Positions 23,246-59,030 of a stretch of 64,000 nt of DNA are shown here, one piece after another. The stretch is taken from the NCBI GenBank assembly GCA_900472175.1, contig UCHD01000001.1, positions 855,665 to 919,664 of the forward strand, given 5' to 3'. The stretch comes from Hyphomicrobiales bacterium (GTDB lineage: Bacteria > Pseudomonadota > Alphaproteobacteria > Rhizobiales > Rhizobiaceae). A model generated the notes under the pieces. It saw nothing but the letters and a program-made list of their open reading frames with translations, did not search any database and was not told where the DNA came from. The translations under genes were made by a program, and so were the position numbers. The first letter of the stretch is position 1; the number at the start of each line of letters is the position of its first letter.

Positions 23246-23261
23246 TGGTGCCCCCACCAGG
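23246..23261. repeat. attL core
   Basis: The 16 bases TGGTGCCCCCACCAGG are identical to the end of tRNA-Thr at the far boundary and here have no tRNA body attached. This is the displaced original 3' end of the tRNA gene. The integrase stop codon is ten bases away. Confidence 0.9.
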
Positions 23262-23270
23262 GCTACCATA

Positions 23271-24362
23271 TCATTTTTTTGATGTTGTTTTCATTGTGTT
23301 TTCCGGATTCATTCCCTCACCGAGATTAGGGTGAGGGATTTCTATGTTCCCTATCTGGTCTGCGACGATCCGGCTGCCCTCGATACCGAGGCGGGCCCGA
23401 TCCACTCCCTTAGTGTAAATTTGGGCTGTCGCAATGTTCGTCCAGCCATACTGCGCGAGCAGATGATGTGTCGCCGCGCCGCCTTCAGCCGCCAGCGTGG
23501 CGCTGAGCTTGCGGAGCCCGTGCGCTGATTTGGTCACGCCCGCTTCGGTGCACTTCTCCCTGAACCAATTTCCAAAGCTCTCTTTCGTGAAGGGGCGCCC
23601 ATGCGCGTTCTCGACGAGGTGAAGCCCGCGGCGTGGCGTGGTGTCCATTACGGCCAGCAGGACGTCTGGCAGCTCGACAGTGACCCGAGCGCCGGTCTTT
23701 GCCGTGTCCATCGAGAGAATCCGTCCGCTGATGTGCTGTCGGCCGGCTAGGACGACGTCAGAGCGCCGTAGGCCAGCCAGCAGCATAAGCTCCATAGCCA
23801 AGCGCTCCGGCGTTCCCACGGTGTGTCTGGTGCGGAACCCTTTCACGTCATCAACCGTCCAAGCCGGAAAGCCATCGGACTTGTAGGATGGCTTCTCAAC
23901 GCCGATGGTTGGATCAGTAGCGATCAGCCGCATCTTCTTCGCCCACGAAAACAGCCCCCTCATGGCCTTCAGGAAGTTTCCTGCCTGCGCCGGCGTCTCG
24001 TGGCGCTTATCGACACCCTCCTGGATGACGTCTTGAGAGATAGCGGAGAGGGCTGCTCGAGCATTTCCCTTTAAGACCTTTGCCATGATCAGGCGCTGCT
24101 GCTTCTGCGTTGAAGCGCTATATCCCTGCCAGCGGGCGCTTTCGGTCGTATAACGGCCCCACAGCCATTCGAGCGTGTTCTCGTAGACTTTCGGGGCTAC
24201 CACCGGCTCGCCGGTCAGAGCAGCCATGTACGCGGCCTTGAATGCTGGATCGTTCGGGTTCGGGAGCCGGGTTCTTTTCCCTTTGCCGATACGGAAATAA
24301 AAGACCCACTTTTCATGGCGGGTCTTTTGCTTGTGAACGTGGAGGGGGAGCTTTCTTGGCAT
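23271..24362 (-). CDS. int: Phage integrase, tyrosine recombinase family
   Basis: A site-specific recombinase that joins phage and host att sites. The 363 residues comprise an N-terminal arm-binding part (MPRKLPLHVHKQKTRHEKWV), a SAM-like core-binding domain (about 70-160) and a catalytic domain. The first arginine is in LLAGLRRSDVV, the H-x-x-R is HGLRKLSATL, and the tyrosine nucleophile is in AQIYTKGVDR; the second histidine position reads as Trp (QYGWTN), a known variant. ATG 24362 is used; a TTG 12 codons upstream overlaps the preceding gene. The gene is adjacent to attL, as expected for a phage integrated by this enzyme. Confidence 0.95.
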   Translation of the reverse strand: MPRKLPLHVHKQKTRHEKWVFYFRIGKGKRTRLPNPNDPAFKAAYMAALTGEPVVAPKVYENTLEWLWGRYTTESARWQGYSASTQKQQRLIMAKVLKGNARAALSAISQDVIQEGVDKRHETPAQAGNFLKAMRGLFSWAKKMRLIATDPTIGVEKPSYKSDGFPAWTVDDVKGFRTRHTVGTPERLAMELMLLAGLRRSDVVLAGRQHISGRILSMDTAKTGARVTVELPDVLLAVMDTTPRRGLHLVENAHGRPFTKESFGNWFREKCTEAGVTKSAHGLRKLSATLAAEGGAATHHLLAQYGWTNIATAQIYTKGVDRARLGIEGSRIVADQIGNIEIPHPNLGEGMNPENTMKTTSKK

Positions 24363-24372
24363 CCCCGAACCA

Positions 24373-24543
24373 TCATAGGACGGGGCGTGAGTAGTCAATT
24401 CCAGCTTCCTTCAACGATTTCTGCTCCGGATAGACGGTGAAAACGGCTTCTCCGACGCGGATTTCCACCTTGCAGCCAGTCTGTTTGGCCACTTCGGCGG
24501 CCCGGAGCATGTCGGGCTTGCGAATGAGGGAAGGCGTCGTCAA
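24373..24543 (-). CDS. Small phage protein before integrase
   Basis: A 56-residue frame starting at TTG 24543 and ending 11 bases before the integrase ATG. Its start overlaps the stop of the preceding gene in the four bases TTGA, and GGGGAG lies about eight bases upstream, so it should be translated by coupling. The sequence (start MTTPSLIRKPDMLRAAEVAK, then VEIRVGEAVFTVYPE) is protein-like with a helix followed by two strands, as in small DNA-binding proteins. Position suggests an excisionase or recombination directionality factor, but I see no diagnostic motif. Confidence 0.6.
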   Translation of the reverse strand: MTTPSLIRKPDMLRAAEVAKQTGCKVEIRVGEAVFTVYPEQKSLKEAGIDYSRPVL

Positions 24544-53189: not shown

Positions 53190-54572
53190 ATGCCAAGAGT
53201 AGGCGGAGTATACAGCCCCCCGGCAGGGACGAAGGGCACACCGAACACGACCATCCAGTCGGCGCCGTACAATGCCTTTGTTGACGACTTGTCATCGGAC
53301 GCAAACAATCCACGGCCGATTACTGCCGGCGGCACGGGAGCGACGAACGCAACCGCGGCACGTGTGAGTTTAGGCGTCGAGATCGGTACCAACGTCCAGG
53401 CATATGATGCTCTGCTCCAATCGATTGCTGGTCTAACCACATCTGCGAACCAGATGATCTACCTGACCGGCACGGATACGGCTGCGGTAACGGCAATCAC
53501 TGCTTTTGGGCGATCCCTGATCGATGATGCGGATGCTGCTGCCGGGCGTGCAACGCTTGGCGCGAACGATGCGTCAAACTTGACCGCGGGAACGGTAAAC
53601 GACGCACGACTGCCGTCCACTATGTCTGGTAAAACATTCACCGGGATCGTCGGCGCAACGGGTAGTTTCACGGTAAAGGCGACGGGAGCCGCTGCTAATA
53701 CCGATCTTCAGCATCTCTCGAATCTCGGAGTGGTCAGGGCCGTCAATTTCTATTCGCCGTCCCTTCAGACTTGGGCAGTTCAGCTTGCCGATACCTCTGG
53801 CACACCTGTCCGCACGATGGATTTCCGGCAAAGTGACGGTCGATTCAACCTTGACGGCTACCTGAATTCCACTGGTGGTGTGTACGCGGCAACAGAACTG
53901 GGTGCTGGATCAGCCAGGTTCACCACGACGGGCAACATCACCTTTGCCGGTGCTATGCAAGCGACCTATGGAAATGCCCTTAGCGACGCGCTGAACGCGC
54001 GCATGACGTTCACCGCTGGTGGCACGATGGCCACCGCTGCGTCGATCGCCTTCGGCCCTTTGTACGGCAATAATAGCATTTCGTCCGGGAACGCGGACGC
54101 AGCGAGCTACGCAGGCCAGAACTGGCGGCTGAACGGTTGGAACGGCTTGGGGATGTACGACTCCAATGCCGGGGCTGTTAAGGGCTTCTACGATTTCCGT
54201 GTCGGGAAGTGGGACACGCTCGGCGGCTTTTTCAAGAACGGCGTGGCCGTCGTCTACAATGACTTCGCCACTTACAACATTGGTATCAATGGTAGCGCGA
54301 CAGCCGTTGGTGGTGTCGGTATCTCGGGCATTGCCCAGATCGCCAACACGACCAATGCCGCTGAAGTCAATTTTCCTATCGGTTGGAGTATCCTGCTTCT
54401 CACCGGCGCGAGCTTGTCGCGAAACGGGGGCTGCTCGCCATGCCTGTTCACCGGTGACACGCTTGCCTACGTCAACTTGGGCGATGCTAACGCTGGGGCA
54501 GGGCTCCCCGGTACCTGGCGGGCGTCCGGGCGTTTTGCCGCCGGCCAACACATTGTTACGAGGATTTCATGA
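53190..54572 (+). CDS. Tail fibre protein
   Basis: A 460-residue Gly/Thr/Ala-rich protein. The N-terminus (PRVGGVYSPPAGTKGTPNTT and ITAGGTGATNATAARVSLG) is a widespread phage fibre module attaching to the virion. The middle holds repeats of the LTAGTVNDARLP type common in fibres, and the C-terminus (GTWRASGRFAAGQHIVTRIS) would bind the host surface. GGAGG precedes the ATG at 53190. The stop overlaps the next gene by ATGA. Confidence 0.88.
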   Translation: MPRVGGVYSPPAGTKGTPNTTIQSAPYNAFVDDLSSDANNPRPITAGGTGATNATAARVSLGVEIGTNVQAYDALLQSIAGLTTSANQMIYLTGTDTAAVTAITAFGRSLIDDADAAAGRATLGANDASNLTAGTVNDARLPSTMSGKTFTGIVGATGSFTVKATGAAANTDLQHLSNLGVVRAVNFYSPSLQTWAVQLADTSGTPVRTMDFRQSDGRFNLDGYLNSTGGVYAATELGAGSARFTTTGNITFAGAMQATYGNALSDALNARMTFTAGGTMATAASIAFGPLYGNNSISSGNADAASYAGQNWRLNGWNGLGMYDSNAGAVKGFYDFRVGKWDTLGGFFKNGVAVVYNDFATYNIGINGSATAVGGVGISGIAQIANTTNAAEVNFPIGWSILLLTGASLSRNGGCSPCLFTGDTLAYVNLGDANAGAGLPGTWRASGRFAAGQHIVTRIS

Positions 54573-55081
54573 TGGAGCAGATCGAAGAAAACACCGCTGT
54601 CTTTGCTTCACCTGCATCGGCATTCGTTCGGGTTGTCACCGCGCACTACATGGATCTGATCGGCACGATCTATGCGATGATCATTGCCGATACGGATGGT
54701 GTCGAAGAAGAACGGATAGCTGTGACAAATCCCACCGATCCCTATGGATTTTCACCAGAGATCCGGCAATGGTTTCTCGACAACCCTGAATTTGTGATTG
54801 GCCCGTACGTTCCGCCACCGGAGCCAACACCGGACGAGCTGCGGGCGCTAATGCCCGCGCTGCCGCGGTTGACGTTCCGCAACCGGTTCAAAGCGGCCGG
54901 GATGACGACGGCAGTCATCAACAGCGCGATTGCCTCGATCGACGATGAAAGCATTCAGGAAGACATGCAGATCGCTTGGGAAGATACCCAGAGCTTTGGC
55001 CGTCTTGATCCGTTCGTGATCATGGTTGCGACATACGCCGTCAAGACGCCGGAGCAGATCGATACGATCTGGACAGCTTGA
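54569..55081 (+). CDS. Tail fibre assembly-type protein
   Basis: A 170-residue protein coupled to the fibre gene by ATGA. Its C-terminal half (LPRLTFRNRFKAAGMTTAVI, then AWEDTQSFGRLDPFV) is a module often found in phage fibre-associated proteins and chaperones. It may help fold or attach the fibre. Assignment rests on that module and position. Confidence 0.7.
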   Translation: MMEQIEENTAVFASPASAFVRVVTAHYMDLIGTIYAMIIADTDGVEEERIAVTNPTDPYGFSPEIRQWFLDNPEFVIGPYVPPPEPTPDELRALMPALPRLTFRNRFKAAGMTTAVINSAIASIDDESIQEDMQIAWEDTQSFGRLDPFVIMVATYAVKTPEQIDTIWTA

Positions 55082-55082
55082 A

Positions 55083-55115
55083 ACCCGGTCGCCGCCTGAC
55101 CGAAAGCGACCGGGT
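55083..55115. other. Perfect hairpin after the fibre assembly gene
   Basis: A 10-bp perfect stem (ACCCGGTCGC / GCGACCGGGT) with a 13-base loop starts two bases after the stop codon. It lacks a T-run, so it may protect the 3' end of the mRNA rather than terminate. Confidence 0.6.
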
Positions 55116-55157
55116 ACTCTCGCTTCACGTATCACTGCATGAAACGGCTGGGCGATA

Positions 55158-55271
55158 TCAAATAAACATGAGCATTGGAAGACTGAGGATAGCCACGGTC
55201 AGGCCCACACCCGTCGTTATGCGCACGGCCCTAAGCAGCCAATGGCGCTTTCCATCCCAGTCGTAAGTCAT
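55158..55271 (-). CDS. 37-residue reversed membrane microprotein, candidate
   Basis: A minus-strand frame from ATG 55271 to TGA 55158. The product starts MTYDWDGKRHWLLRAVRITT and ends in one hydrophobic segment (VGLTVAILSLPMLMFI), so it should be a single-pass membrane peptide with the charged end inside. GAGGGG lies five to six bases upstream. The plus-strand frame over the same bases is less protein-like. Confidence 0.55.
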   Translation of the reverse strand: MTYDWDGKRHWLLRAVRITTGVGLTVAILSLPMLMFI

Positions 55272-55342
55272 TCATGCCCCTCGGTTTTGCTTAGACTTGG
55301 TGCGCTGTGATGAAACTTCAACTCCCTTAGTTGGGGTTGGAC

Positions 55343-55442
55343 GAGGCCTGATTACCTCAGGCGGGCAATACAGGCCTCTAACCGGCATCCGGGAGAGTGG
55401 TCCGTTGGCCGGCTGTTCAGAAACTACCCAGGCTCTTTTTAG
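55343..55442 (+). ncRNA. Structured RNA element A, tandem pair
   Basis: Begins with an 8-bp perfect stem GAGGCCTG / CAGGCCTC (55343-55350 with 55371-55378), then a conserved TAACCGGCATC, a second stem CCGGC / GCCGG, and ends near a T-run (55436-55440). A related second copy follows 143 bases downstream. A 7-bp stem CAACTCC / GGGGTTG stands just before it (about 55319-55339). Confidence 0.6.
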
Positions 55443-55485
55443 TTCAGCGGCGGCTTAAATATAAAAGACGGCGCTTAGGGAGTGC

Positions 55486-55572
55486 GAGGCCTGATGCCGG
55501 GGGCGGCGAACAGGCCTCTAACCGCATCTCGCGAAGGGGATTCCGCGGGTCGGCTGGCTCATAACCGCCCTC
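55486..55572 (+). ncRNA. Structured RNA element B, tandem pair
   Basis: The same 8-bp stem GAGGCCTG / CAGGCCTC (55486-55493 with 55511-55518) with a shorter, different loop, then ACAGGCCTCTAACC-GCATC shared with element A, a CGCG / CGCG inner stem, and CGGCTG near the end as in A. Stems and flanks are kept while loops differ, which suggests selection on RNA structure. The endolysin gene starts 35 bases later. Confidence 0.6.
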
Positions 55573-55606
55573 AGTTGCAATTGTTCCAACATCAAAGGAC
55601 ATCACT

Positions 55607-56590
55607 ATGCTTGCCATCACTGCCGCGCAGGTGCGCACGGCTGCGCTTTCGGCCGTCAACAGCAGCAATATGACCTCGGTCATGGTCGCACTCGATCGCT
55701 TCGGTGACGACCTGGGCATGAACAAGCCGCACATCCTGGTGCAGTTCTTCGCCCAGATCATGCATGAAAGCGGCGACTTCCGGTTTGACCGTGAAATCTG
55801 GGGGCCGACGCCGGCGCAGGAGCGGTATGACACCCGCACGGATCTTGGCAATACGGCGGCAAAAGACGGAGACGGCTTTATCTATCGCGGCCGCACCGCC
55901 ATGCAGCTGACGGGAAAGGACAATTATCGGCAGTTCCGCGACTGGTGCCGGTCGCGCGGCTATAACCCGCCAGATTTTGTTGCCTACCCTGACAAGGTGA
56001 ACACCGATCCTTGGGAAGGCCTGGTGCCGCTCTGGTATTGGTTTTCGCGGGATCTCAACAAGTGGGCCAATCAAGGCGATATCGAAACCGTCACTCAAAA
56101 GATCAACGGCGGGAAGAACGGCTTCGCGGATCGCGTGACGCGCTACGGAAGACTTTCTCTCGTTCTGCTCGGCTACCGGCCGGATAACGTGCTGCAGTTT
56201 CAGGCGGACCACCGTCTCGATGTTGATGGCGATGTTGGCCCGAAAACACGTGCGGCCTTGCACGGCGAACTGGTGGCATTGGTGCCGGGCGAGATGGCAA
56301 AGTCCACCGTTACCGTCGCGCCCGTGGTCGTTGAGACGACTGTGGTCGAACACAAGCCAGTCGTGCCCGTTGCGGTAGATGCGCAGGTCAAGACGAAGGT
56401 CGACCGTACCGGGTGGCTCGTCGGCGTTGGCGGCACAGTCGGAACGGCGGCAACGGCCGCGCTCGGCTCCAACTGGCAGACTGTTCTAGCCTTCGGCGCG
56501 GTCTCGCTTGCTGCGCTGCTTTTGATCGTCCTCCTACGTCGCCAGATCGTAGCCGCGGTGAGGGAAATTCGCGGCGAGGTCGAGGCATGA
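55607..56590 (+). CDS. Endolysin, GH19 type with peptidoglycan-binding domain and C-terminal anchor
   Basis: A 327-residue lysis enzyme. Residues about 1-200 form a glycoside hydrolase family 19 (chitinase-like lysozyme) domain with the catalytic glutamate in FFAQIMHESGDFRFDRE and the conserved YRGRTAMQLTGKDNY. A peptidoglycan-binding segment (FQADHRLDVDGDVGPKTRAA) follows at about 203-222, then a Val/Pro-rich linker, and a hydrophobic segment (about 285-308, VLAFGAVSLAALLLIVLL) before a basic end. The C-terminal anchor is unusual for endolysins and would keep it at the inner membrane. The stop overlaps the spanin start. Confidence 0.9.
   Translation: MLAITAAQVRTAALSAVNSSNMTSVMVALDRFGDDLGMNKPHILVQFFAQIMHESGDFRFDREIWGPTPAQERYDTRTDLGNTAAKDGDGFIYRGRTAMQLTGKDNYRQFRDWCRSRGYNPPDFVAYPDKVNTDPWEGLVPLWYWFSRDLNKWANQGDIETVTQKINGGKNGFADRVTRYGRLSLVLLGYRPDNVLQFQADHRLDVDGDVGPKTRAALHGELVALVPGEMAKSTVTVAPVVVETTVVEHKPVVPVAVDAQVKTKVDRTGWLVGVGGTVGTAATAALGSNWQTVLAFGAVSLAALLLIVLLRRQIVAAVREIRGEVEA

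Positions 56591-58954: not shown

Positions 58955-59030
<76 letters not shown>

Follow-up and report, generated by a model that had tools for sequence, protein, structure and literature searches.

Two copies of a structured RNA element precede the endolysin gene of a prophage in the window, by which we mean the whole stretch of 64,000 nucleotides that was analysed. Whatever their function, the copies belong to a family of structured RNAs that shows good covariation and has no entry in Rfam 15. The two-hairpin fold is well supported by sequence comparison. As the best explanation, to which we give about an even chance, the copies would form a cis-acting folded 5' leader of the endolysin mRNA and act as a lysis-timing riboregulator. 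The first-pass annotation of this DNA had named a small RNA, a lysis-timing riboregulator, and a processed leader as options; we favored a cis-acting leader because place and strand of the element are fixed relative to the endolysin gene wherever such a gene is present.

Two elements in the gap before the endolysin gene

The host genome of the window has 5.46 Mb. The prophage seems to extend from an integrase gene (23271-24398, minus strand) to a tRNA-Thr gene (58955-59030, minus strand). A 16-base repeat, TGGTGCCCCCACCAGG, is present at the integrase end (23246-23261) and inside the tRNA-Thr gene (58955-58970), and because of these two positions it is the probable attachment site of the prophage. 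Genes for terminase, portal, scaffold, and tail fibre were recognised. The following features surround the elements:

54569-55081: 170-codon ORF (phrog_6034) between the fibre gene and the gap
55158-55271, minus strand: predicted 37-codon ORF MTYDWDGKRHWLLRAVRITTGVGLTVAILSLPMLMFI with one hydrophobic stretch, a neighbor outside the RNA whose family recurs in the same gap
55340-55432, plus strand: element copy 1 with P2, UAA linker, P3, CUG, and a 3' conserved stretch
55483-55573, plus strand: element copy 2 with P2, UAA linker, P3, and CUG, with its end 33 bases ahead of the endolysin ATG
55594-55606, plus strand: spacer AAAGGACATCACT, containing a ribosome-binding-like stretch ahead of the ATG, compared with the element-free leaders of loci L118 and L119
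55607-56590, plus strand: endolysin gene downstream of the elements, 327 codons long, assigned to PHROG chitinase/endolysin with a weak match to Pfam GH19 (15.2 bits, cut-off 25.5)

The first-pass annotation of this DNA had described two related segments 143 bases apart with shared stems and blocks and differing loops, and coordinates and folding confirmed this description. In copy 1, P2 is formed by GAGGCCTG (55343-55350) pairing with CAGGCCTC (55371-55378) over 8 bp and is followed by TAA, while in P3 CCGGC (55382-55386) pairs with GCCGG (55408-55412), followed by CTG (55413-55415). In copy 2, the same P2 arms lie at 55486-55493 and 55511-55518, again followed by TAA, and P3 consists of CCG (55522-55524) and CGG (55551-55553) plus inner pairs, with CTG at 55554-55556. 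Common to both copies are ACAGGCCTCTAACC, GCATC, and CGGCTG. The covariance models R1 and R2 scored copy 1 with 70.3 and 58.9 bits and copy 2 with 64.5 and 55.3 bits, respectively. Single-sequence folding predicted both hairpins in both copies with z-scores of only -1.4 to -1.8. When the 335-base stretch was shuffled with preserved dinucleotides, at least one such 8-mer hairpin occurred in 532 of 5000 shuffles, and the same 8-mer hairpin twice in none of 5000. A search of the host genome with the two-part pattern returned exactly these two occurrences.

The segments had also been said to fill the only untranslated gap between fibre and lysis genes. The elements do lie in the gap before the endolysin gene, but the gap also contains the predicted 37-codon ORF on the opposite strand (55158-55271), and the 170-codon ORF separates the gap from the fibre gene. 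By eye, a single reading frame would give similar peptides from the two copies. We rejected this coding reading, since the loops of relatives carry indels that are not multiples of three, single-base ones among them, which excludes a shared coding frame.

The RNA family and its conserved fold

The family comprises 66 covariance-model matches from genomes of the family of the window and from viral contigs. Alignment A3 holds these 66 matches (60 distinct rows) from the window and from 54 of 112 loci, including three pairs of duplicate loci (L020/L097, L027/L098, L025/L100); it was limited to matches of 1e-4 or better. Compensatory two-sided changes were found in 11 of the 13 base pairs, as known for structured cis-acting leader classes, in which pairing is kept by such changes. 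In the paired columns 87.4% of the cells can pair, compared to 28.6-46.4% with slid partners. The pairing percentage, the covariation score, and the number of two-sided changes were each reached by 0 of 500 shuffles; the number of further pair types was not above that of the shuffles (417 of 500 reached the observed count). The selection for RNA structure that the first-pass annotation had suggested is supported by the covariation among homologues.

Since A3 was aligned by a covariance model it is biased towards structure, and the seed members were picked by GAGGCC. Neither explains the replaced stems. The pair GAGGCC/GGCCUC of the first hairpin is replaced by GAGACC/GGUCUC, GAAGCC/GGCUUC, GAGGCU/AGCCUC, GAGGUC/GACCUC, and GGGGCC/GGCCCC, and the pair CCGGC/GCCGG of the second hairpin by CUGGC/GCCAG, CCGCUC/GAGCGG, and CCGU/ACGG. 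For further helices the comparison gave less. P1 (GGGC/GCCC) and P5 (GCCC/GGGC) of a possible switch are fully paired in 13 and 15 of 31 hand-picked sequences, and in these sequences they are conserved in sequence with no clear two-sided change. A possible P4 differs between groups as judged by eye.

No known class had been assigned to the segments, and our searches of Rfam 15 agreed with this. At gathering cut-offs the whole window gave three tRNAs and no match to the element. With lax settings the element region gave sR9 (21 bits, cut-off 36) and Cyano-2 (14.5 bits, cut-off 40), neither of which reached its cut-off. In five relatives the element was without a match above cut-off. The match to the alphaproteobacterial sRNA ar35 in L007 (L007:2492-2586, minus strand, 49.7 bits) was above cut-off; it lies about 900 bases from an element and is a neighbor distinct from it. 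Phage C4 antisense RNA (RF01695) and other Rfam families resemble the element as small structured phage leader RNAs; the element matches none of them at cut-off.

The unpaired stretches URA (in the linker), CUG, and UUACCAC are conserved in the family. Such conservation would fit a leader that contains a self-cleaving ribozyme, and other ribozymes occur near phage lysis genes. We consider a ribozyme highly improbable: none of the Rfam ribozyme models matches the element in the window, in the element region, or in the five relatives, and two extra helices tried by hand showed no covariation.

The counts of relatives depended on the search. A DNA search detected relatives in 4 of the 26 genomes of the genus of the window, its own genome included. 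A three-part pattern occurred in 21 stretches of the genome collection and in 24 of IMG/VR. Eight of the 21 (L013, L018, L021, L022, L026, L029, L031, L033) were judged by eye alone to be chance matches; the other 13 stand in records named as Sinorhizobium, Ensifer, Rhizobium, or a "Rhizobiales bacterium". Two IMG/VR matches were likewise dismissed by eye as chance, namely L009 (18.9 bits), which stands before an ash/icd-like ORF, and L129 (25.4 bits), which is apparently coding sequence.

Model R1 was built from 17 hand-picked members (alignment A1; A4 with 31 sequences was also hand-picked) and does not require the stem letters for a match. It found matches in 18 of the 26 genomes of the genus of the window (E up to 0.1), in 19 of 33 genomes of the genus of G279, judged to be Sinorhizobium by loci identical to named records (E up to 0.001), and in 3 of 16 genomes of the genus of G239, judged to be Ensifer by equal scores (E up to 0.001). 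Family-wide, with E 1e-4 and stricter filters, 6 of 297 genomes had matches. Copy numbers are low, with two in the host of the window, at most ten matches in a genome of its genus (E up to 0.1), and one to four in each of the 19 Sinorhizobium-genus genomes having any (E up to 0.001). Only part of the listed model matches became loci.

An order-wide search with the second model, R2, gave matches in 12 of 199 genomes. Among nine newly fetched loci, L136 alone precedes an endolysin gene. L137, from the family of the window, fits the fold, L138 is doubtful, and L139-L144 look like chance or coding sequence. L136 is from another family and was the best R2 match in the 199 genomes after that of the window itself. 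Its stems have other letters (GGCCCG/CGGGCC and CCGCGC/GCGCGG) in the same order of hairpin, UAA, and hairpin, and an endolysin gene on the same strand, with a product 57% identical to the L040 amidase, starts about 61 bases behind it. We regard L136 (L136:1501-1650) as a probable distant member of the family, judged by sequence. In the family of L136, 7 of 18 genomes had matches, and 11 further loci (L145-L155) were without a match to nine endolysin queries. Divergent hairpin pairs of similar layout were seen by eye upstream of position 1501 in L068 and at about 1880-1965 in L130. The models miss these pairs, and the family probably has more members than our counts show.

Position before endolysin genes and possible modes of action

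We searched 1.5 kb on either side of the 66 matches with eight endolysin queries. An endolysin gene was found for 32 of the 66 matches, at 27 loci that are not independent, as several of those from Sinorhizobium are near-identical. In all 32 cases the best endolysin match was downstream and on the same strand, and none was upstream or antisense. This one-sided position strengthened the tie to the endolysin gene that had been proposed for the window. A fixed strand and a place upstream of the start codon are features of cis-acting leader classes; they apply to the 32 matches with an endolysin, and the other 34 have none within 1.5 kb. Three of these 34 (L037) reach the edge of the sequence searched, and some others keep a shortened or mutated endolysin start as judged by eye. 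In 19 of the 66 the endolysin match starts within 112 bases of the element, with a distance of 34-39 bases in the window type and of 65-70 in most of the Sinorhizobium type. Several kinds of endolysin follow the element, namely a GH19-like type, CHAP, Amidase_2 whose peptidoglycan-binding domain may stand at one end or the other (in L040 the N-terminal domain was assigned by alignment), and the L065 type, which matched the L119 query, itself without a Pfam match.

From these positions we infer that the element regulates the endolysin gene. The late transcript would carry both elements, and a ribosome, an RNase, or some protein could bind the fold, or RNA polymerase could recognise it. Such binding or recognition would tune how much or how early endolysin is made and hence the timing of lysis. 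Structured cis-regulatory leaders of the riboswitch type or the protein-bound type are alike in having a fold with compensatory changes, a short distance to the start codon, and the strand of the gene. Unlike these, the element precedes lysis enzymes of unlike folds, occurs in tandem, has no covarying switch helix, and is known from sequence alone. In a more specific version, which we find doubtful, the element would be a dedicated and transferable class of lysis-timing riboregulators. Temperate phages of Rhizobiales would have placed this two-hairpin leader, often as tandem copies, before the endolysin gene at hand, be it GH19-like, CHAP, or amidase, and the leader would directly control endolysin output on a signal of the cell or the phage. 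The timing of lysis is commonly attributed to holins, antiholins, and transcription. If the leader reading is true, a conserved RNA fold that goes with unlike endolysin families would make the mRNA leader a further point at which phages set the lysis clock, and the element would offer a testable handle in well-studied rhizobial prophages.

Simple masking of the Shine-Dalgarno sequence is not supported as the mode of action. The predicted access to it in 16 leaders was on average 0.35 with and 0.34 without the element, and L034 was the sole leader with a clear drop (from 0.67 to 0.31). Positions 54950-55650 contain neither a sigma-70-like promoter nor an intrinsic terminator.

Another reading is a role in transcription, in which the nascent two-hairpin RNA would modify RNA polymerase so that the lysis genes are read through terminators, or would act as an attenuator. 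Phage HK022 put RNA modifies RNA polymerase in this way, and, by its description, resembles the element in having two neighboring stem-loops in a phage transcript. Known put sites sit in early operons, whereas the elements lie at lysis genes. The two hairpins with their short linker, the tandem copies, the border of the lysis genes, and the hairpin with TTTTT between element and endolysin gene in L136 would all suit such a role, as would the 10-bp inverted repeat at 55083-55092/55106-55115. However, no terminator-like site was detected in 54950-55650, and the inverted repeat lies upstream of the elements, so that antitermination would come too late. We rate a role in transcription as unlikely.

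A small RNA acting in trans, processed from the late mRNA or made independently, appears quite unlikely to us. This reading includes kissing of the tandem copies, and the loops of tandem partners gave it partial support. The second-hairpin loops are complementary over about 9-10 bases in L005, L006, and L007 (-21 to -23 kcal/mol), and in these loci it looks as if the tandem leaders could kiss. For the other eight tandem pairs the values were -13.6 to +2.2 (window -11.8), against a background of -7.9 (sd 5.3), so that strong complementarity is limited to 3 of 11 pairs and we rejected kissing as a general feature. The first-hairpin loops of the 11 pairs had a mean of -15.2, which is somewhat better than the background of -11.4 (sd 3.4). 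A small RNA would also agree with the sharp 5' border of a conserved block at one orphan site of the genus Sinorhizobium. At this site, present in seven records, about 155 bases are conserved with a sharp start at GGCGAGGCC, and P2 shows an A-U to G-C replacement. Against a small RNA, no conserved promoter was present directly upstream of this block and no terminator in 54950-55650, and the fixed place before the endolysin start speaks for action in cis.

Optional presence, orphan copies, and relics of exchange

The motif is absent from some relatives. The sister loci L118 and L119 have the same small ORF on the opposite strand and an endolysin gene, and no element. Between the outer ends of the start codons of these two genes there are 82 bases in L118, 80 in L119, and 341 in the window; in L130, with its divergent hairpin pair unseen by the models, there are 195. 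The isolated phages phiLM21 and phi3LM21 contain no element, and four of six IMG/VR relatives of the L086 amidase had no match near the start. Judged from these element-free relatives, lysis in general does not depend on the motif. Because the sister loci share the gene order without the motif, it behaves in such comparisons as an optional, swappable leader cassette.

The endolysin genes themselves also appear to vary in this place. Behind some elements a cut endolysin start is followed by other DNA or by another endolysin gene. Such relics suggest that endolysin genes behind the motif have been exchanged. Just upstream of the element in L015, L049, L050, L052, L053, and L124 we noted shortened starts (MARETLPVALELMFGDEGGY...) that resemble another endolysin type, presumably GH108-like, and point to more than one replacement of the endolysin. 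Genes for endolysins that break off after about 8 codons (MSAITAQ, MAENISAQ, MSEIISAQ) were seen in L007:1502-1700, L028, L036, L043, L046, and L053; these are separate loci, with the cut at about the same codon and near a possible hairpin at the start codon. The region recombines often.

These observations feed the main rival to a leader, a low-copy mobile repeat or recombination linker, that is, hairpin DNA at module borders that spreads or aids endolysin exchange and has no regulatory role. Several orphan copies lie between ordinary host genes, tandem copies have diverged, the order of elements and opposite-strand ORF is shuffled, and presence or absence differs between sister loci. In addition, shortened endolysin starts behind elements are followed by 0.8-1.6 kb of other DNA and then a second copy. 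The strict strand relation weakens this explanation: random insertion would give both strands, and the orientation to endolysins was fixed in 32 of 32 cases. The copy number is low, the compensatory changes in P3, which is variable in its letters, are unexpected for a recombination linker, and several orphans keep a relic of an endolysin start (by eye) and may be remains of prophages. Altogether we think a repeat or linker rather unlikely.

RIME and REP are high-copy rhizobial repeats. Like the element they are palindromic intergenic sequences in Rhizobiaceae; compared by description, the element differs in being fixed in strand before endolysin genes and in having 2 copies in the genome of the window (5.46 Mb), where many dispersed copies would mark a high-copy repeat. 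REP elements are named in the passages of PMC2873474 that we consulted, and a table there gives SmelB126 at pSymB 1325476-1325586 (plus strand). By this entry SmelB126 is about 3.4 kb from a weak copy of the element, L124:3858-3934 (18.3 bits), on the opposite strand. Full-text searches for endolysin together with RNA motif, phage, and covariation returned no paper, and neither did a search for put RNA. Titles and the first parts of abstracts on ribozymes and endolysins, on Sinorhizobium small RNAs and prophages, and on rhizobial lysis or moron RNAs described no such element. Within the literature searched, including passages of PMC2873474, PMC3616915, and PMC3927594, we know of no published description.

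The 37-codon ORF of the window belongs to a family of small peptides (MxYDWxGkRxR..., 37-56 codons) with one hydrophobic stretch. Members were seen in the window and in L005, L006, L007, L020, L051, L063, L065, L086, L088, L089, L118, and L119, mostly in the gap between fibre and endolysin genes and usually on the strand opposite to element and endolysin gene, with L064 as an exception. The family is present in 16 of the 26 genomes of the genus of the window (E up to 0.05). Two members had no match in Pfam, and the member of the window had none in PHROG. Possibly the family is a moron with its own promoter. The 10-bp inverted repeat of the window, ACCCGGTCGC/GCGACCGGGT, directly follows the last gene before the gap and is a possible terminator of the opposite-strand ORF; a sequence resembling it adjoins the elements or the small ORF in L006, L007, and L065.
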